Below, piece after piece: positions 14,933 through 59,592 of a DNA stretch of 64,000 nucleotides. The notes beneath the pieces are model-generated. The model searched no databases. It was not told where the DNA came from and was given only the letters and a program-made list of their open reading frames with translations. The DNA comes from an uncultured Opitutales bacterium (GTDB taxonomy: Bacteria > Verrucomicrobiota > Verrucomicrobiia > Opitutales > Intestinicryptomonadaceae). A program made the position numbers and the translations under genes. The stretch is from positions 38,976 to 102,975 of the forward strand of contig CALXLK010000009.1 in assembly GCA_944389175.1 (NCBI GenBank), written 5' to 3'. Position 1 is the stretch's first letter; each line of letters starts with the position of its first letter.

Positions 14933-17113
14933 TTAAGCCTCGAGAAGTTCGAGCATTTTCTTTGCGGAATCGGCGATCTTTGTGCCGGGGCCAAATATTG
15001 CGGCTGCGCCGTGGTCGAAGAGGAACTGGTAGTCTTGGACGGGAATGACGCCGCCGACAACGACCATGATATCCTCGCGGCCGAGCTTTTTGAGCTCCTG
15101 AACCAGCTGCGGCAACAGAGTCTTGTGGCCTGCGGCCAGCGAGCTCATGCCGACAATGTGGACATCGTTTTCGACGGCCATCTTTGCCGTTTCTTCCGGA
15201 GTCTGGAACAGGGGACCGACATCGACGTCGAATCCGAGGTCGGCATAGCCCGTGGCGACAACCTTTGCGCCGCGGTCGTGGCCGTCCTGCCCCATTTTTG
15301 CTATGAGGATTCTCGGCTTGCGGCCTTCGCGAGCCTCGAACTTTTTAATCATGTCGGCGATTTCGTTCACAGTCTTTATGTTGTTTGCGTTCTTTGTCAG
15401 TTCCTTGCCGTATACGCCGTCGATAGAGCGGATTACGGCCTTATAGCGGCCAAATACCTTTTCGCAAGCCATGGATATTTCACCCAAGCTCGCCCTGGCT
15501 TTCGCGGCCTCGACGCTCAATTCGAGCAGGTTGCCCTTGCCCGTAGCAGCGCAATTTGTAATCTCGTCAAGTATGCGGCGAACCTGAGCGTTGTCGCGGT
15601 TTGCGCGCAGCTTTTCAAGCTTGCGTATCTGAGCCTCGCGCACGGCGGTATTGTCGATGTCGAGAATGTCCAGCGGCTGCTCCTTTTCGAGCCTGTATTT
15701 CGTCAGGCCTACAATCGTCTCCATTCCGCCGTCGATTCTGGCCTGGCGGCGCGCCGAAGCCTCCTCAATGCGCAGTTTAGGCAGACCAGCCTCAATGGCC
15801 TTCGTCATGCCGCCGTGCTCTTCGACTTCGCTGATGTGGTTCCACGCCGAGCGCGCCAACTCGTCGGTCAGCTTCTCTACGTAGTATGAACCGGCCCACG
15901 GATCGATTACGCGGCAAATGCCGGTCTCGTCCTGCAAATACAGCTGCGTGTTGCGGGCAATTCTCGCGGAGAAGTCGGTCGGCAAAGCAATCGCCTCGTC
16001 GAGGGCGTTTGTGTGCAAGCTCTGGGTGTGGCCCAAAGCCGCGCCCATGGCCTCGACGCACGTGCGCGTTACGTTGTTGAACGGATCCTGCTCCGTCAAC
16101 GACCAACCCGATGTCTGAGAGTGCGTGCGCAACGCAAGGCTCTTGGGATCCTGCGGATCAAAGCCCTTTACGATTTTCGCCCACAACATTCTCGCCGCGC
16201 GCATCTTGGCAACTTCCATGAAGTAGTTCTTGCCTATCGCCCAGAAGAACGACAGACGCGGAGCGAACTGGTCAACCTTCAGCCCGGCCTTTATGCCTTC
16301 GCGCAAGTATTCCAAACCGTCGGCAAGCGTGTAGGCCATTTCCAAATCGGCCGTGGCGCCCGCCTCCTGCATGTGGTAGCCCGAAATCGATATGCTGTTA
16401 AACTTGGGCATGTTCTTCGACGTGTACGCAAAAATATCGCCGATAATCTTCATCGAGGGCGTCGGCGGATATATGTAGGTATTGCGCACCATGAACTCTT
16501 TGAGAATGTCGTTCTGAATTGTTCCGGCAAGCTGTTCAAGCTTTGCGCCCTGCTCCAAACCGGCCACAATGTAGAAAGCCATAATCGGCAAAACAGCCCC
16601 GTTCATCGTCATCGAAACCGATACCTGCGAGAGCGGGATTTTGTCAAAGAGGACTTCCATGTCCATAATAGAGTCTACTGCCACGCCCGCCTTGCCGACG
16701 TCGCCAACGACGCGCGGATGGTCGGAGTCGTAGCCTCTGTGGGTGGCCAAGTCAAACGCGATCGAAAGCCCCTTCTGGCCGGCGGCCAAATTGCGCCTGT
16801 AAAACGCGTTGGATTCCTCCGCCGTCGAGAAACCGGCGTACTGGCGAACCGTCCACGGGCGAACAACATACATAGTCGCATACGGCCCGCGCAAGTACGG
16901 GGCAATGCCCGCCGTAAAATCGAGGTGCTCAAGACCCTCGTAATCCGCCTTCGTATAAAGGGGCTTTACTCGGATGCGTTCCATCGTATCGGCAACGAGC
17001 GAATCGGCAGAAACCCCCGTTGCATTCTTTACTGCGTCCTCCCACTGCTGTTGCGAAACTTTGTCGGAGGAAAACTCCAATCCAATCTTACTAAAATCAG
17101 GATTCTTGTTCAT
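14933..17113 (-). CDS. mutB: Methylmalonyl-CoA mutase large (catalytic) subunit
   Basis: The 726-residue B12-dependent alpha subunit that interconverts succinyl-CoA and (R)-methylmalonyl-CoA, the key step of propionate formation by the succinate pathway. The N-terminal TIM barrel carries [18 protein letters not shown] and the substrate-channel blocks [19 protein letters not shown] and [14 protein letters not shown]. The C-terminal domain has the base-off cobalamin motif [11 protein letters not shown] with the cobalt-ligand histidine near residue 609, then GMSSLAAGH and VVVGGVIP. The start at 17113 is backed by AGAAAGGTG eight bases upstream. It follows mutA by 18 bases and ends at a strong terminator. 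The cofactor dependence links it to the B12 riboswitch locus at 55-59 kb. Confidence 0.97.
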
Positions 17114-17131
17114 CTATACAACACCTTTCTA

Positions 17132-19204
17132 TTATAGAACGCCGAGGTCGCTCAAAACCGATTTTAAGACCTCGTAGTTGTTGCTCTTTATATTGATGAA
17201 GCCGTCGCAACCGGCGCCTCTGTAGACGGGCTCGAGCTCTTCCGGAGCGGCCCCTGCCATATATACCACGCTCTCGGGCTTTAGCGCCTTTATCGCCTTA
17301 GAAACGGCAGGCACCAATTCCGGATACGTAGCGTCGGTGGAACAAATTACGGCGTACTTGCAACCGCTGTCGGCAAACGCCTTTGCGGCGGCGTCGGCAT
17401 CGGCGAATCCGTTGGGGTAGACAACGTCGAAACCGCCGACCTCAAAGAAGCCGCGGATAAAATCTGCGCGAATCTTGTGCTGGACAAGCGGGCCCATCGT
17501 CGCCAAGAAAATCTTGGGCGCCGAACCGTTCTTTGCCTTGTAGTCGGCGCTGGCCACGCGCAGTTTTTCAAAGTGCTCCACAGCCCTGTGGATGTCGAGG
17601 GGCTTTACGCTTTCAGAAGCGTTGCACTTGCAAACAGCCTGGCGCATTTCGCCAATCGAGGCGCCCTTTTCGGCGGCCTCTGCGAGCTTTTCCATGCCGC
17701 ATTTGGGGCAAAGCTTGCCTATCTCGACCTCCTTGCGGGCAGCGGAAACCGCCGCAGAACGATCCTTAAAGACTTTTGCCAGATCGTCGCAGTTGGCAGG
17801 AAGCGGCTTTTCGGTCATGTTCGCGTAGTTGTTTGTACCCACGACAGAGCTCCTGCGGCTGTCGTACCCCTTGCGGCGAAGCGCCGAAACAGCTGCAATT
17901 TTGTCCTGGACGAAACCCGATTTCAAAGCCTCGAGCATACCGCCGAGCTTTTCTATCTCGACGAACATATCCCATGCCCTCTGGGCGACAGCGCGCGTGA
18001 GCGTCTCGACGTAATACGAGCCGCCAGCCGGGTCAGCCACGTCGGAAAGGCCGCATTCCTCTTGAAGGATAACCTGCTGGTTCCTTGCAATGCGCTCCGA
18101 GAATTCGTCGGGCTTGCGTATGATTTCGTCAAAGGCGCCTACCGTCATGGAATCGGTGCCGCCGATTACGCCGGAGAAAGCCTCCGTGGCGGTTCTGAGC
18201 ATGTTGACATACGGGTCGAACTTCGTCTTGTTGAAGAACGCCGTGCGCGCGTTTACCTTTATTTTCAAGGAGTCGCCAGTGCCGCCGAAAGCCTTTACCA
18301 TGTTGGCCCACAGCACTCTGGCCGCCCTGAATTTTGCAATTTCCATGAAGAAATTCGAGCCGAGCGCGAAACGGAACCTGACCAATGCGGCCACGTCGTC
18401 TATTTCCATGCCGCGCTCGAGCATTGCCCTAATATAGTAGGAAGCCGTGGCCATTGCGCAGGCCAATTCTTCGACGACGCTCGCGCCGGCCGAGGAATAG
18501 GGCATGGTGTCGACGCCTATCGCGCCGAACTGCTTGGCGTTTTTGGCGCAGTACGAGGCAATCATATGCATTTCGTTGAGCGCGCAATCCATGGAGCGCG
18601 GAAGAGAGCCGCCCGAAGCCAAAGTGCCCAGGGGGTCGAACCTTATTCCGCCTGATATCTTTTTGCCGACGGAGGCCGCCAGGAACGCAGCAAACACGGG
18701 TGCAGCTGAGGATTGTGTTGAAATGTTAACGTCGACGCACTCAAGCGCGACGCCCTTGAGGGCTTTTTTGAAATCTTCGGCCGTGCTGATTGACAAACCG
18801 CATGCTCCGACATCTCCCTCTTTGGACTTATCCGCATCGATGCCGTTTGCCGAGGGCTTGTCGAGGACAATTTCGATGGAAGTCTGCCCCTTGTTCAGGG
18901 CGTCGAGAATCTTTGCGTTAAATTCCTCGGGCGTGGCCGCCGAAAGCTCCTGAGAAATAAGCCACGGCTTTGTCTTGTTGCCGTCGGGTTTTACGCCCCT
19001 GACAAAATCTCCGAATCCCGGAGGCGTCGGTTCAAAATCGACGTCTGAACGGTTGTATATCGGCTTCAACACGATACCCTCGGGGGTCTTCGTGTTCATT
19101 TTCTTGTCAAACGGAGCACCTTTTAGAAGTTTTTCAGCCGCGGCGTACCATTCTTCGTACGTAGCCGGCTTGAACTCCGAAAATAGAGACTGTTTGTCTT
19201 GCAT
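17132..19204 (-). CDS. mutA: Methylmalonyl-CoA mutase small subunit
   Basis: A 690-residue non-catalytic partner of MutB. The TIM-barrel half is recognisable (GISGGIRFDPLG-like, MIASYCAKNAKQFGAIGVDT, and QQVILQEECGLSDVADPAGG). In the B12 domain the DxHxxG motif is replaced by MGPLVQHKIR, the expected loss in this subunit. The heterodimer is the bacterial form seen in Propionibacterium. Odd feature: about residues 495-530 hold a CPKCG...CKC zinc-ribbon-like insert between the barrel and the cobalamin-like domain. AAGGAAG lies just upstream of the ATG at 19204. It is the first gene of the two-gene operon and is divergent from the MFS transporter. Confidence 0.95.
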   Translation of the reverse strand: MQDKQSLFSEFKPATYEEWYAAAEKLLKGAPFDKKMNTKTPEGIVLKPIYNRSDVDFEPTPPGFGDFVRGVKPDGNKTKPWLISQELSAATPEEFNAKILDALNKGQTSIEIVLDKPSANGIDADKSKEGDVGACGLSISTAEDFKKALKGVALECVDVNISTQSSAAPVFAAFLAASVGKKISGGIRFDPLGTLASGGSLPRSMDCALNEMHMIASYCAKNAKQFGAIGVDTMPYSSAGASVVEELACAMATASYYIRAMLERGMEIDDVAALVRFRFALGSNFFMEIAKFRAARVLWANMVKAFGGTGDSLKIKVNARTAFFNKTKFDPYVNMLRTATEAFSGVIGGTDSMTVGAFDEIIRKPDEFSERIARNQQVILQEECGLSDVADPAGGSYYVETLTRAVAQRAWDMFVEIEKLGGMLEALKSGFVQDKIAAVSALRRKGYDSRRSSVVGTNNYANMTEKPLPANCDDLAKVFKDRSAAVSAARKEVEIGKLCPKCGMEKLAEAAEKGASIGEMRQAVCKCNASESVKPLDIHRAVEHFEKLRVASADYKAKNGSAPKIFLATMGPLVQHKIRADFIRGFFEVGGFDVVYPNGFADADAAAKAFADSGCKYAVICSTDATYPELVPAVSKAIKALKPESVVYMAGAAPEELEPVYRGAGCDGFINIKSNNYEVLKSVLSDLGVL

Positions 19205-55030: not shown

Positions 55031-55269
55031 AATTTTATTGCTTTTACCGCGCATGGATTGGGGCGATAGTGCCGAAATGTCTCTAAAATAGGGCATTTGC
55101 TTTAGGTGCGCTGCCTTGCCAGGGTTATATTCTTAGGCTATAAAACAATTCGAAAATAAAAATAGGATTGACTTTGTAGAAAATAAGTTGGAGGCTAGCT
55201 GCGTTCTTTATATAGAAAACTTAGCGATGTTTTTCATCAAACGGAAGTTCCGTGGGGGGATTTTTTATT

Positions 55270-55455
55270 TGGAGGCCGTCGGCCGCGCGCGGTGTTTATG
55301 CGCCCGTCCAGCCCTTTATAAAAGCCCCGATTCGGACGCGGTCGCGCCACTGTGATTTTGATAGGAATTTTTCATATAGCCACTGCCCAACGGCGGGAAG
55401 GCACGAATAATTTCGGGAGTAAAATCCGCAAATAAGCCAGTAGACGAGTTGAACG
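55270..55455 (+). promoter_or_regulatory. Cobalamin (vitamin B12) riboswitch
   Basis: The conserved blocks of the cobalamin aptamer occur in order: GCGCCACTGTGA (55344-55355), the B12 box AGCCACTG (55378-55385), GGGAAGGC (55395-55402), AGCCAG (55435-55440) and AGAC (55442-55445). The CGGACGCGGTCGC before the first block fits the P3/P4 core; the 5' half (from about 55270) is less standard, so the left edge is approximate. It lies about 130 bases before the PEP-CTERM/TonB operon. A CGGGC-loop-GCCCG hairpin at 55508-55528 may be part of the expression platform. With high B12 this should turn the downstream uptake genes off. Confidence 0.88.
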
Positions 55456-55585
55456 ACATTGCCTTTAAGCTCTCGCGTTAAGAATTTGAAGGCGGTACAT
55501 GTGTGTTCGGGCTTTTTTGTTTTGCCCGGGCGCGTTTGAATCCCCGGCAGAATTCTCTGCGCGAAAAAAAAGGGACTCAAACACG

Positions 55586-56521
55586 ATGAAATATACAAAA
55601 TTATTCGCGGCTGTCGCGGTTACGGCCGTATCATCATTAACTGTATCGGGGGCGCAGGGCGTTTTCGATTTTGAAACAATTCCGTCGGGCGCGCCGGCTC
55701 CGGTATCTACACAGACGGGCGATGCTGCGGGATGGACCGACTACGAGGGGGCGACGTATTCTTCGGTATCTAAAGACGGCTCGATATACGGGCATTTAAA
55801 CACGTCGGGGATGTACTGGGGCGGAGTAATAGCAAACTCGAAGACGAACACCGGGACGACTTTTGCCGGAGACGTAGACACGTACAGGGGAGGCGCGGCC
55901 TCGGGGGACAACTACGGCGTAATATATGGCTATTCGCGCGGCAACCTCGGCGCCGACGACCCGTATTTCCCAAATGCCTATAAGACGAACCTCAACGAGG
56001 ACGGCTTCGGGTATTCAACATCGTTTATGACCGACGAGGCCGTCGTATTCAACAGCATCGATGTTTCGATGACGGCCTATACGTACAAGTCGTTATTCAA
56101 TCCCGACGCCAATTCAAACGTCGGCGTAAGCGGCCAGGATCCCGATACGTTTGAAAAGACCTATTATTCCATAAACAACACGGAAGGCTCGTTTTACGCC
56201 TGCAGAATTTACGCCCTGGATGAAAATTACGAGCCCATCACGTCGAACTACAAGCAGGTTATCTTTGCCCAGAATATAGACGGCACCGTAACTGCCACGC
56301 CCGACTGGACGACCGTCGATCTCGGCGACCTGTGCGGAGAGGGCGCGTATGGATTGGCCTTTGAAATGATTTCAAATTTCGGCAGCAACTACGGCATGCT
56401 CACGCCTTCATATGTGGCCATAGACAACCTCGTCTTCACCACCGTTCCGGAACCCGCCGTATTCGCGGCTTTGTTCGGAGCAATTGCGATGGCTTTCGCC
56501 GCGTACAAGAGGCGCAAGTAA
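55586..56521 (+). CDS. DUF4465-like PEP-CTERM surface protein, candidate B12-binding protein
   Basis: A 311-residue exported protein. The start MKYTKLFAAVAVTAV at 55586 gives a signal peptide cleaved near SGA; a longer open frame from 55499 runs through the riboswitch tail and is rejected. The mature part is beta-rich and matches the DUF4465 layout: DFETIP, WTDYEG, then FAQNIDGTVTATPDWTTVDL and YGMLTPSYVAIDNLVF near the end. The C-terminus VPEPAVFAALFGAIAMAF followed by YKRRK is a PEP-CTERM sorting signal (VPEP, helix, basic tail), so an exosortase should anchor it. It is the first gene behind the cobalamin riboswitch and 33 bases before a TonB receptor, so B12 capture is the best guess. Confidence 0.85.
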   Translation: MKYTKLFAAVAVTAVSSLTVSGAQGVFDFETIPSGAPAPVSTQTGDAAGWTDYEGATYSSVSKDGSIYGHLNTSGMYWGGVIANSKTNTGTTFAGDVDTYRGGAASGDNYGVIYGYSRGNLGADDPYFPNAYKTNLNEDGFGYSTSFMTDEAVVFNSIDVSMTAYTYKSLFNPDANSNVGVSGQDPDTFEKTYYSINNTEGSFYACRIYALDENYEPITSNYKQVIFAQNIDGTVTATPDWTTVDLGDLCGEGAYGLAFEMISNFGSNYGMLTPSYVAIDNLVFTTVPEPAVFAALFGAIAMAFAAYKRRK

Positions 56522-56554
56522 TATCCTAAAGCCGACACCTCCTGGCATTGCACC

Positions 56555-58630
56555 ATGAAAGACCTTCTAAGCATAAAGCCGTTTATTGTTGCCGCGCTGA
56601 TTGTCCCGCTGTTTTCGGCGGGGCAAGACGCGCGGGAAGATACGGGGCAAGAAGCCGAAGCGACGCTCGAGGAGGTGCAGTCGGTTGGCGACAGGTTCAC
56701 CCAGCAAGATTTAAACCGACCGGTAAATTCCACGTTTCTGACCTCCGACGACATTGCCGACACCGGCTCCAACAGCATACCCGAGCTGCTGCTAAAGACG
56801 ACGACAGTGCGTTTAATCAACTACACCGGCAATCCCGACGACGGGCAGCTTGCAATGCGCGGCTTTGGAGACAATTCGCAGCTGCGAGTGGCCGTGATAG
56901 TTGACGGCGTGCGGTACAACCGCGTTGACATGAATACGATTCCATGGCTGCAGATACCAACCGACAACATAGAGTCTGTGGAGGTGCTCAGGGGGGCCAA
57001 CAGCGCCCGCTACGGCAACAATGCCATAGCCGGCGTAATCAACATTAAGACCAGGGATATAACCAAGGAGGACATGCTTGCCGTCTCGGGCACGTATGGT
57101 TCTTACGATACTTATTCGGTCAGCGGTTTTGGTTCGCTCTCGCGCGACGAGGGCTTTGCCACTGTAAACGCGAGGCGCTATTACACCGACGGCTACAGGG
57201 AATATTCAAAGAGCTGGTCGAACAACTTTGGCGGCAGCGTCGGCTATTTCATAAACGATGCTACCACATTCACGCTTTCGGGCAACTACAGCAAGATTTA
57301 CACGCAGTTCCCCAACGCGCTCTCGTACGACCAGATGATGCAGGATCCGCAACAGGCCACGTGGGCGAGCACCATATACGATTGTTCCGCCTATGTAATT
57401 TCGGGGAATTTTGACCTCGACGGCGCGCGCACGAAAGGATACGCCAATTTTTCCTATAATTCTTACGACAGGCAAATATCGAATTCGCGCTCGACGGCGC
57501 GCCCTGTCGAGGACGACCAGTACACGCTGACATTTGCCAGCGAATTTGAGACCGAGGTTGCCCAAGATTTGCGTGTTTACGCAGGTTTTGAGGCGCAATA
57601 TACAAATCTCGACCGCAAGGCGCAGGCCTCCCAAAGGATTTCGAGCCTGATTACCGCCGACTACCTCAAAGAACATTCCGACATCGACAGGCTCACCTTT
57701 GGCGCGCACGTCGGCGCCACATACGACATAACCGAAAAACTTTCCGCCGATATTTGCGGCAGGGCCGACGCGTGCAACACAAAAGCCCTTTACGTTGAGC
57801 GCGGCGCGCGAACAATTTTTACGCCGCCCTACTATGAAATTTTTGTGGACGAGGCAAAATCGTACGACGAGTCTGTCTGGCAGGCGGGCTTTGCGGCGAC
57901 GGCGTCGCTAAACTACAAGATAGACGAAAACTCGTCCGCGTACATCAAGTTCGACCAGATTTTCAGATATCCGTCGACCGACGAGATAGCCCTTTACCAA
58001 TCGTGGGGCACCATAAGCAACATAAAATTCAACAAAGATTTAAAGCCCGAGACCGGCCAGAACATAGAGATAGGCTACAAGTATCTCGGCAAGCGGCTAA
58101 ACATAAACGCCAGTCTTTACGCGCTATTCCTGCACGACGAGATAATGTATTTTCCGCGGGCAACTCCCGGCGGGGATACCGTCAACGACAACGTGCCCGA
58201 TACAATGCGCCTGGGTGCCGATCTATACGCATCGTACAACTTTGGCATTTTTGGAATATACTCCGGAGCGTCGCTTGTCGATGCGCGGTTTATAGCCGGC
58301 GAATACGACGGTTGTGAAATTCCGATGGTGCCGTGGTTTAATTGTTTTGCAGGAATATTTGTCAATCCCACGGATTTTCTAACAATAACGGTGCAGACGA
58401 ACTACACCACGACGCAGTATCAAAGTTCCGATCTGGGCAATGAGCTTATGAAGATGCCCGATTACGTTACGCTCGATATACGGCTGAATATTCGCATAAA
58501 CGAATATGCCTCGGCATTCTTTGCCGTCGACAACGTGCTCGACGAGAAGTACGCGCTGGCGGCCGTTTACAATTCCTTTTATCCGGCGATAGGCAGAATG
58601 TTCAAGGCCGGAATCAACCTAAAATTCTAA
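56555..58630 (+). CDS. TonB-dependent outer-membrane receptor, probable cobalamin transporter (BtuB-like)
   Basis: A 691-residue receptor. The signal peptide (about 1-23) is followed by a short acidic region and the plug domain (about 45-165): STFLTSDDIADTGSNSIPEL, LAMRGFGDNSQLRVAVIVDG, VEVLRGANSARYGNNAIAGV and INIKTRD. The 22-strand barrel fills the rest and ends with the consensus YALAAVYNSFYPAIGRMF and a terminal phenylalanine (NLKF). The plug resembles siderophore/BtuB-type receptors and lacks the N-terminal CarboxypepD domain of SusC proteins. Control by the cobalamin riboswitch and the two flanking PEP-CTERM proteins point to vitamin B12 or a cobamide as substrate. Inner-membrane btuCDF genes are not in the window. 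Confidence 0.88.
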   Translation: MKDLLSIKPFIVAALIVPLFSAGQDAREDTGQEAEATLEEVQSVGDRFTQQDLNRPVNSTFLTSDDIADTGSNSIPELLLKTTTVRLINYTGNPDDGQLAMRGFGDNSQLRVAVIVDGVRYNRVDMNTIPWLQIPTDNIESVEVLRGANSARYGNNAIAGVINIKTRDITKEDMLAVSGTYGSYDTYSVSGFGSLSRDEGFATVNARRYYTDGYREYSKSWSNNFGGSVGYFINDATTFTLSGNYSKIYTQFPNALSYDQMMQDPQQATWASTIYDCSAYVISGNFDLDGARTKGYANFSYNSYDRQISNSRSTARPVEDDQYTLTFASEFETEVAQDLRVYAGFEAQYTNLDRKAQASQRISSLITADYLKEHSDIDRLTFGAHVGATYDITEKLSADICGRADACNTKALYVERGARTIFTPPYYEIFVDEAKSYDESVWQAGFAATASLNYKIDENSSAYIKFDQIFRYPSTDEIALYQSWGTISNIKFNKDLKPETGQNIEIGYKYLGKRLNINASLYALFLHDEIMYFPRATPGGDTVNDNVPDTMRLGADLYASYNFGIFGIYSGASLVDARFIAGEYDGCEIPMVPWFNCFAGIFVNPTDFLTITVQTNYTTTQYQSSDLGNELMKMPDYVTLDIRLNIRINEYASAFFAVDNVLDEKYALAAVYNSFYPAIGRMFKAGINLKF

Positions 58631-58635
58631 AAGCT

Positions 58636-59592
58636 ATGGTAAAAGACATATTGGTTCTGTTGGCGAGCATGTCGACGCTGTGCGCAGCGTACGACTACTC
58701 ATATTTTAATGGGAATCCGACTCTCGCCCCAAACGGGGAGCAGATAACTTATATTCCGGAGGCGGGCATATTGCAGTTCTGCCCGGCTCCCGGTGCCGGG
58801 GTGACATCTTCGGCCATATCGTACAACAGCTCGAAAATAAAATCGTGGGCGACCGGCTACCAGGATCTCAAGTACGGATCATCGGCGACAAACCCCACCT
58901 TTAGCGACGAATGGAAGACTCCCGAAAATGCGGTAGGGCCCGTGACGTCGATCGAAATGACCGAAGGCGTAGTTTGCCTTGGTGACGGCGGCACCATAAC
59001 TATGACCTTTTCACAGGGGATTTCCAATGGCGCAGGGTACGATTTTGCCGTATTCGAGAATGGATTTTCCAGCACGTATCTCGAGCTTGCCTATGTGGAG
59101 GTGTCAAGCGACGGCGCAAACTACGTGAGGTTTCCCAATTTCTACATGGGAGAGACGCCCATCAACGATCTCGACCAGACTCCAACCGGGCAAAACTACC
59201 CGACGAACGTGTACAATCTGGCCTCGAAATACGAGAGCGGCATAGGGCACGGCTTCGACCTTGAAGAGTTGCAGTATGCCTACGACTACGTAAAAAACGG
59301 CGGAACCGGCTTTACCGACGAATATGCGCAGAGCCTGCTAAATAATTTTGAGAAGCTTGACCTTAACAACATAGGCTATGTGCGCATTACCGACATTCTC
59401 GGCGAGGGCGGAGAAGTCGACAGCGTAGGGCACGTTATATACGACCCCTCCGGCGCAAATCCCGGGGCCCCCGGCTTCGATCTAAAGGGAATCGGCGTCA
59501 TAAACGAGGGAGTAGTCGTACCCGAGCCCGCTACGTTCGCTTTCCTTCTTGCTGCTATAGCTTCAATAGTCGTGATCAGAAGAAAGCGCTAA
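58636..59592 (+). CDS. PEP-CTERM surface protein of the B12-uptake operon
   Basis: A 318-residue exported protein beginning 5 bases after the TonB receptor stop. A signal peptide (about 1-18) precedes a beta-rich body with SLGDGGTITMTFSQGISNGA-like strands (VCLGDGGTITMTF, YDFAVFENGF, LELAYVEVSSDGANYVRF, VGHVIYDPSG, GFDLKGIGVINEG). Proteins of this type are often found as 'cell surface proteins' next to BtuB-like receptors. The C-terminus VVPEPATFAFLLAAIASIV with a final RRKR is a PEP-CTERM signal. The gene is clearly not related to the DUF4465-like protein of the same operon. I infer an accessory role in substrate capture; the binding function is unproven. Confidence 0.82.
   Translation: MVKDILVLLASMSTLCAAYDYSYFNGNPTLAPNGEQITYIPEAGILQFCPAPGAGVTSSAISYNSSKIKSWATGYQDLKYGSSATNPTFSDEWKTPENAVGPVTSIEMTEGVVCLGDGGTITMTFSQGISNGAGYDFAVFENGFSSTYLELAYVEVSSDGANYVRFPNFYMGETPINDLDQTPTGQNYPTNVYNLASKYESGIGHGFDLEELQYAYDYVKNGGTGFTDEYAQSLLNNFEKLDLNNIGYVRITDILGEGGEVDSVGHVIYDPSGANPGAPGFDLKGIGVINEGVVVPEPATFAFLLAAIASIVVIRRKR

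Follow-up and report, generated by a model that had tools for sequence, protein, structure and literature searches.

A likely cobamide-capture operon behind a cobalamin riboswitch in an Opitutales bacterium, encoding BtuJ-type and BtuH-like proteins with predicted exosortase tails

Behind a cobalamin riboswitch in an uncultured Opitutales bacterium, three genes very probably form a vitamin-B12-repressed operon for cobamide capture, which encodes a DUF4465 protein, a TonB-dependent receptor predicted to play the role of BtuB, and a BtuH-like protein, with both flanking proteins ending in predicted exosortase-sorted tails. The window analysed here, a stretch of 64,000 nucleotides, comes from an assembly of 2.29 Mb in 32 contigs that is 92.8% complete. 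As shown in Table 1, the three genes follow the riboswitch on the same strand, and the gaps between them are 33 and 5 bases. The initial annotation of this DNA had described two PEP-CTERM-tailed accessory proteins around a TonB receptor behind a cobalamin riboswitch, and the Pfam and Rfam matches agree with this description, as does the gene order. We consider the operon a B12-capture locus with high confidence.

Table 1. Features of the window and of related loci (window positions unless a locus is named).
Feature	Position	Strand	Basis
Cobalamin riboswitch aptamer (RF00174)	55189..55467	+	Rfam covariance-model match
Predicted hairpin over the first gene's ribosome-binding site (candidate expression platform)	55534..55582	+	RNA fold
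BtuJ-type (DUF4465) protein, 311 aa, with PEP-CTERM-type tail	55586..56521	+	PF14717
PEP-CTERM-type sorting tail of the DUF4465 protein	56441..56515	+	PF07589 below cut-off; invariant P and E
TonB-dependent outer-membrane receptor, 691 aa, taken as B12 receptor	56555..58630	+	PF07715, PF00593
BtuH-like protein, 318 aa, with PEP-CTERM tail; body without Pfam domain	58636..59592	+	PF07589 tail match only
PEP-CTERM sorting tail of the BtuH-like protein	59518..59586	+	PF07589, TIGR02595
Methylmalonyl-CoA mutase subunits, two adjacent genes, the larger with B12-binding domain	14933-19204	-	
Longer BtuH-like proteins without terminal PEP	L040:8143-10308, L041:5685-7808, L044:7966-10131, L045:8227-9657, L046:783-2906, L047:8226-10427		

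A focused cmscan with laxer filters matched the region ahead of the first gene to the Rfam Cobalamin model (RF00174) over its full length (1-189) with 46.1 bits (E 1.8e-10). Since membership is decided by the curated gathering score of 31.5 bits, the riboswitch that had been proposed ahead of the operon is confirmed as a member of the family. The aptamer begins 81 bases before position 55270 and contains a long insertion. A gathering-threshold Rfam scan of the whole window with fast filters returned no match and missed this element; we rejected that null result as a refutation of the riboswitch because the focused scan and a search of the source genome both detect it, the latter with 45 bits over model positions 47-167. 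When the aptamer was aligned with 19 other aptamers found by Rfam, the core columns were invariant. By analogy with other members of its family, the aptamer would bind a cobamide and repress the genes downstream. The RNA fold of 55440-55610 (z -2.59) contains the hairpin over the ribosome-binding site. In a comparison of 13 loci, which left out L048 and L049 since our script found no start codon there, the hairpin beat at least 99 of 100 mononucleotide shuffles at 5 loci, the window locus not being among them, and at the window locus the hairpin is only suggestive as the riboswitch output. Promoter and terminator scans performed no better than on shuffles. Two further cobalamin riboswitches occur in the same genome. 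One (75.6 bits; L034:5620-7012, contig C31) precedes genes for a LysR-type regulator and a ThrE-like exporter, which are an unusual target for B12 control, and the other (73.3 bits; L035:162-1888, contig C19) precedes a major-facilitator transporter, possibly a cobamide- or cobalt-related carrier.

The operon arrangement is more than chance, since it recurs in related genomes. The BtuH-like protein is found in 24 of 54 genomes (the source genome included), 18 of which belong to the same taxonomic family. In 15 of these 18, the riboswitch, the DUF4465 gene, the receptor gene and the BtuH-like gene lie on one stretch, which answers with a yes the question raised in the initial annotation of whether the three-gene set recurs behind cobalamin riboswitches in relatives; in the remaining three (G004, G017 and G018) the locus is cut by contig ends. 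At the G006 locus, the riboswitch and the DUF4465 gene are on the opposite strand. G010, the single same-family genome without the BtuH-like protein, is also without DUF4465 and exosortase. At the level of the order, G026, G038 and G050 carry DUF4465, receptor and BtuH-like genes with no riboswitch over threshold, in scans whose fast filters may miss weak aptamers, as the whole-window scan did. In G040, two riboswitches and two DUF4465 genes accompany a BtuH-like gene, and a receptor was not found on its 12.8-kb contig. Four copies in three order-level genomes (two in G037, one in G039 and the second copy of G050) lie away from receptor, DUF4465 and riboswitch alike. Across the 54 genomes, DUF4465 and the BtuH-like protein co-occur in 22 of the 25 that have either; Fisher values for this co-occurrence were set aside because they take no account of common descent. 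These counts exclude L022/L030, apparently two fragments of a single gene split by contig ends of G013, L031 (the second piece of L024), and L032 and L033, which match little beyond the tail. In a same-genus genome, a second cobalamin riboswitch and a second TonB-dependent receptor lie directly behind the operon (L037:7736-10057).

The first protein belongs to the DUF4465 family (PF14717, 51.7 bits against a cut-off of 25). A profile of 19 sequences matched the PDB entries 9hmu (2.2e-34) and 9fct (3e-25), as well as 9qpm, 4jqr, 4e9k and 9i2l, and these matches include B12-bound structures. In addition, Foldseek rows 1-9 for the predicted model (pLDDT 75.2) were all DUF4465 structures, so that model and profile both place the protein in the jelly-roll fold of the family. 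Profiles were required here, as single-sequence PDB searches with either flanking protein gave chance matches only. Members of the family bind B12 through a tyrosine in the HI loop (TPAY/TPSY); in the window protein this loop reads MLTPSY, and the Pro and Tyr of TPSY are at least 90% conserved among the 19 aligned sequences. Passages of PMC12751083 give the loop of B. theta BtuJ1 as MNTPSY and describe tight binding of B12 by BtuJ1 and BtuJ2, and passages of PMC13398666 report B12 binding for eight other DUF4465 members, distant relatives that include D5EK51 of Coraliomargarita akajimensis. The initial annotation had held that neither PEP-CTERM protein could be assigned to B12 uptake without the riboswitch, which fails for this protein because DUF4465 is a published B12-binding family (PMC13398666, PMC12751083). 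The window protein is a member of this known kind, and its own B12 binding is predicted from its sequence. BtuJ1, BtuJ2 and D5EK51 (DUF4465, IPR027828) share with it the Pfam family, the jelly-roll fold by model and profile, the conserved TPSY loop, and a riboswitch locus with a TonB receptor. In contrast, BtuJ of B. theta is a lipoprotein, whereas the window protein has a PEP-CTERM-type tail and the lipobox cysteine is absent by eye. The deposited 9hmu chain of D5EK51 ends in ...VPE, which suggests that this proven binder, too, may carry a PEP-CTERM tail that is cleaved at the motif; neither PEP-CTERM nor exosortase is mentioned in the main text of its paper (PMC13398666).

The third protein is a predicted relative of BtuH. 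Two BtuH structures (7biz and 8blw) ranked first and second for its body in PDB searches by two programs, the second of which re-ranks only the matches of the first, and the predicted fold is accordingly that of the BtuH domain; further rows included CBM32/discoidin domains, a common scaffold. Comparison of the family profile with BtuH by hhalign gave 82-90% probability, with single-comparison E values of 1.1e-5 to 1.4e-6 over 53-54 columns. The best comparison reached 90.5% (E 1.4e-6), against 0.3% for the DUF4465 control and 0.1% for the receptor control, which indicates homology to BtuH, though the similarity spans only 54 columns. One-sided profile searches between the two were weak (E 0.0078 and 0.0088). 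The core common to BtuH and the window protein is LGxxGG-ITxxF-...-DFxxxxN. A weak match to the LIC_13355 family lipoprotein (NF033170; E 1.5e-4, residues 117-213) scored 21.1 bits, well under the cut-off of 120. Homology between the two flanking proteins was rejected, as their sole profile match is the common PEP-CTERM tail and the body profiles give 0.3% probability without it.

Passages of PMC8941943 list Tyr510, Trp511, Trp577, His476, Asn399 and Gln333 as B12 contacts of BtuH2, place Phe401 and Leu578 close to the lower ligand, and state that Asn399 holds the B12 phosphate. By our own count, this numbering is the chain position in 7biz plus 100, so that Asn399 and Phe401 correspond to the N and F of GNAF. 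In the profile alignment, Asn399 falls on N142 and Phe401 on F144 of the window protein. N142 is shared by all 41 rows of alignment A1 and by 60 of 60 rows of A2, the latter count being biased because the A2 loci were collected with a peptide pattern that contains the N142 motif; F144 is conserved in 30 of 41 and 48 of 60 rows. Among 27 sequences found without the pattern (the window's included), 25 have the motif, which is unmatched in L056 and in the fragment L061. None of the alignments made with the window protein placed Tyr510, Trp511, Trp577, His476 or Gln333. The protein thus resembles the C-terminal domain of BtuH2/BtuGH (7biz, 8blw) in fold, in the shared core and in the kind of locus, whereas its body is shorter, and neither the C-terminal GWLGE block nor most of the B12 contacts could be matched in it. 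Moreover, BtuH is a lipid-anchored surface lipoprotein, whereas no lipobox is seen by eye in the window protein and its PEP-CTERM tail scores over the cut-off. Because of this tail, the missing lipobox and the five contacts without counterpart, we call the protein BtuH-like rather than BtuH.

Passages of PMC8941943 present BtuH as a domain that binds B12 and has no known structural homologs; among the 313 gut species surveyed there, it occurred in Bacteroidetes and three Firmicutes. As judged from sequence and predicted model, the window protein is a new branch of the BtuH kind that has another anchor and is much more widely distributed than reported. Since fold and profile show a BtuH relative, this protein can also be assigned without the riboswitch, contrary to the earlier claim; likewise, the suggestion of an undescribed class of capture protein has to be narrowed, as the fold is not an undescribed one and belongs to a BtuH-like branch. 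A weakly similar motif occurs in long Bacteroidales proteins (L186, L190, L191, L192, L194 and L195), possibly a further branch of the fold with another role.

The receptor matches the plug (PF07715, 78.5 bits) and barrel (PF00593, 92.8 bits) families. Its profile (15 sequences) found PqqU/YncD first, at 4e-58, and then E. coli BtuB at 2.4e-33, and its score against the BtuB equivalog TIGR01779 was 97.1 bits, far below the cut-off of 599.7. Like BtuB, the window receptor is TonB-dependent and lies in a cobalamin-riboswitch operon, whereas by sequence it is nearer to PqqU/YncD; it is predicted to be the B12 receptor by its locus and not by its family.

Loci of this kind extend well beyond the order. 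From a one-genome-per-species scan, we took the best 80 of 553 confirmed BtuH-like loci, which come from Verrucomicrobiota, Kiritimatiellae, Planctomycetota, Pseudomonadota, Desulfobacterota, Myxococcota, Bacteroidota and Cyanobacteria. A gene finder calls the BtuH-like gene in 72 of these 80 and makes no call in the other 8. A receptor lies within three genes at 32 of the 80 and DUF4465 at 38, both probably undercounts since profiles of the Opitutales order were used. In 9 of the 72 called loci, the DUF4465 and BtuH-like domains are fused in one polypeptide, in both orders. For the riboswitch scan, 31 of the 80 loci were picked for taxonomic spread and by a base limit, with their gene maps known and before any riboswitch result. 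A cobalamin-class riboswitch was found at 27 of the 31 (26 RF00174 and one AdoCbl) and none at L083, L074, L125 and L118. The chance expectation for the 31 loci from whole-genome RF00174 counts is about 0.24, which may be somewhat low because only 58 candidates were scored in most genomes. The riboswitch is upstream on the same strand in all 26 gene-called loci of the 27 positive ones; at L067 it overlaps the called gene start, which is probably called too early. Where exactly one RF00174 match is listed for a genome, this match is at the BtuH-like locus in 14 of 14 cases. At two deltaproteobacterial loci (L069:3228-3765 and L084:6369-7012), the cobalamin riboswitch and the DUF4465 gene are separated by a c-di-GMP-I-GGC riboswitch, and such a tandem could combine c-di-GMP and B12 signals; passages of PMC12530212 describe separate c-di-GMP riboswitches beside PEP-CTERM genes in strain GP59.

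Both flanking proteins of the window end in a PEP motif, a hydrophobic stretch and a basic end, and the genome encodes exosortase (matches of 144.5 and 76.5 bits), as expected of PEP-CTERM/exosortase cargo. The BtuH-like tail scores 22.1 bits against PF07589 (cut-off 20.7) and 16.5 against TIGR02595 (cut-off 16). The DUF4465 tail is clearly under the first cut-off (13.1 bits) and just under the second (15.9), and the P and E of its motif do not vary among 19 aligned sequences, one of which is that of the window. Exosortase was found in 23 of the 24 genomes with the BtuH-like protein versus 16 of the 30 without it (54 genomes, the source genome included). Of the 17 same-family loci at which the C-terminus is visible, 6 encode a longer BtuH-like protein that lacks a terminal PEP motif (Table 1); a Pfam scan of two of these six proteins (L040 and L045) gave no match. 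A simple motif rule applied to the 72 distant proteins (among the best 80 of 553 loci) found 26 PEP/VPxP tails, 16 type-IX-like tails and 30 that were neither. In BtuH, a type IX tail was over the Pfam cut-off in L193 (28.7 versus 27) and slightly under it in L188 (24.3). Given PEP-CTERM and type-IX tails across the relatives and type IX on BtuH, the capture domain seems to stay constant while the anchor changes. The B12 partners of Bacteroides are lipid-anchored, whereas the window pair carries predicted exosortase tails instead, and we judge it most likely that exosortase-sorted proteins replace the lipid-anchored BtuB partners, as had been proposed. Most exosortase cargo has no known function. 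In the literature searched, which lacks most subscription journals and all preprints, we found no paper linking exosortase-sorted proteins with B12 uptake, and this link is absent from the passages of PMC12530212, PMC7726332, PMC5244752 and PMC11287211.

Other readings of the locus have to be weighed. The operon might import another ligand, such as haem, a siderophore or PQQ, with the riboswitch incidental or exerting indirect control, and the best sequence matches of the receptor are indeed haem/siderophore models and PqqU. Yet the receptor family profile matches BtuB directly after PqqU among the structures, DUF4465 binds B12 experimentally in passages of PMC13398666, and the riboswitch association holds across phyla; we regard import of another ligand as highly improbable. 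A further reading concerns where the two proteins reside. Both may be released into the extracellular matrix or be periplasmic, serving as a store or shared scavenger: passages of PMC7726332, a paper on Geobacter, state that proteins cleaved by exosortase reach the exopolysaccharide matrix through export routes that are not known, and passages of PMC12751083 place the action of BtuJ on vesicles in B. theta. The position of the receptor gene between the two protein genes favours the outer surface. We consider a matrix or periplasmic location unlikely.

It is also conceivable, and in our judgement unlikely, that only the DUF4465 protein binds B12 and that the BtuH-like protein has a structural role without binding the ligand, for instance as a lid or docking element of the receptor. 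Five contact residues of BtuH2 were not recovered in it, the next fold rows include the common CBM32/discoidin scaffold, and according to passages of PMC12751083 the lipoproteins BtuL and BtuK2 of B. theta B12 operons did not bind. In contrast, the two BtuH-domain structures outrank every other solved structure matched by its fold, and the phosphate-holding Asn of BtuH2 is matched by Asn in each of the 41 relatives in A1. At L095, L101 and L104, moreover, the BtuH-like gene comes first after the riboswitch with no DUF4465 within four genes, by a search with an Opitutales-only profile that could miss a divergent DUF4465. We therefore favour cobamide binding by both flanking proteins.

The genome also contains predicted users of the cofactor. 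It encodes two B12-binding-domain proteins, one a 1218-residue frame and the other the methylmalonyl-CoA mutase in the window, which is a likely consumer of the cofactor. CbiC, the sole synthesis gene sought in this 92.8% complete assembly, gave no match, and a FecCD permease adjoins an ABC ATPase. Taken together, these results fit a B12 salvager. In G026, a BtuF-type protein (PF01497) directly follows the BtuH-like gene.

From these data we infer how regulation, sorting, cobamide binding and transport may be connected. When cellular cobamide is low, the aptamer would be empty and the operon expressed, as in other members of the riboswitch family. Both flanking proteins would cross the inner membrane and reach the cell surface after the exosortase encoded in the genome has acted on their PEP-CTERM tails. 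The DUF4465 protein would bind cobamide through the conserved TPSY loop, and the BtuH-like protein through the face equivalent to the phosphate site of BtuH. Both would then hand the cobamide to the receptor for import with TonB energy, and an ABC importer would move it inward for methylmalonyl-CoA mutase and a MetH-sized enzyme.

Taken together, the first protein of the operon is of a known kind, binding by the BtuH-like protein is predicted from sequence and fold, and the two flanking proteins likely capture scarce B12 on the cell surface and deliver it to the receptor. The BtuH-like family comprises at least 3,521 proteins, and no Pfam domain other than PEP-CTERM occurs in the 120 members listed. 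Its relatives among the best 80 of 553 loci come from Verrucomicrobiota, Planctomycetota, Pseudomonadota, Desulfobacterota and others, in contrast to the gut-only survey of BtuH. We think it probable that this is a phylum-spanning, BtuH-related family of cobamide-capture proteins beyond Bacteroidetes, with BtuJ-type partners that are sometimes fused to it and with an interchangeable anchor, lipid in Bacteroides and exosortase or type-IX-like elsewhere. If this is true, a family of at least 3,521 proteins would gain a testable function, dedicated B12-capture proteins would be common in Verrucomicrobiota, Planctomycetota and several lineages of Pseudomonadota and Desulfobacterota, and exosortase would gain a concrete cargo in vitamin uptake.
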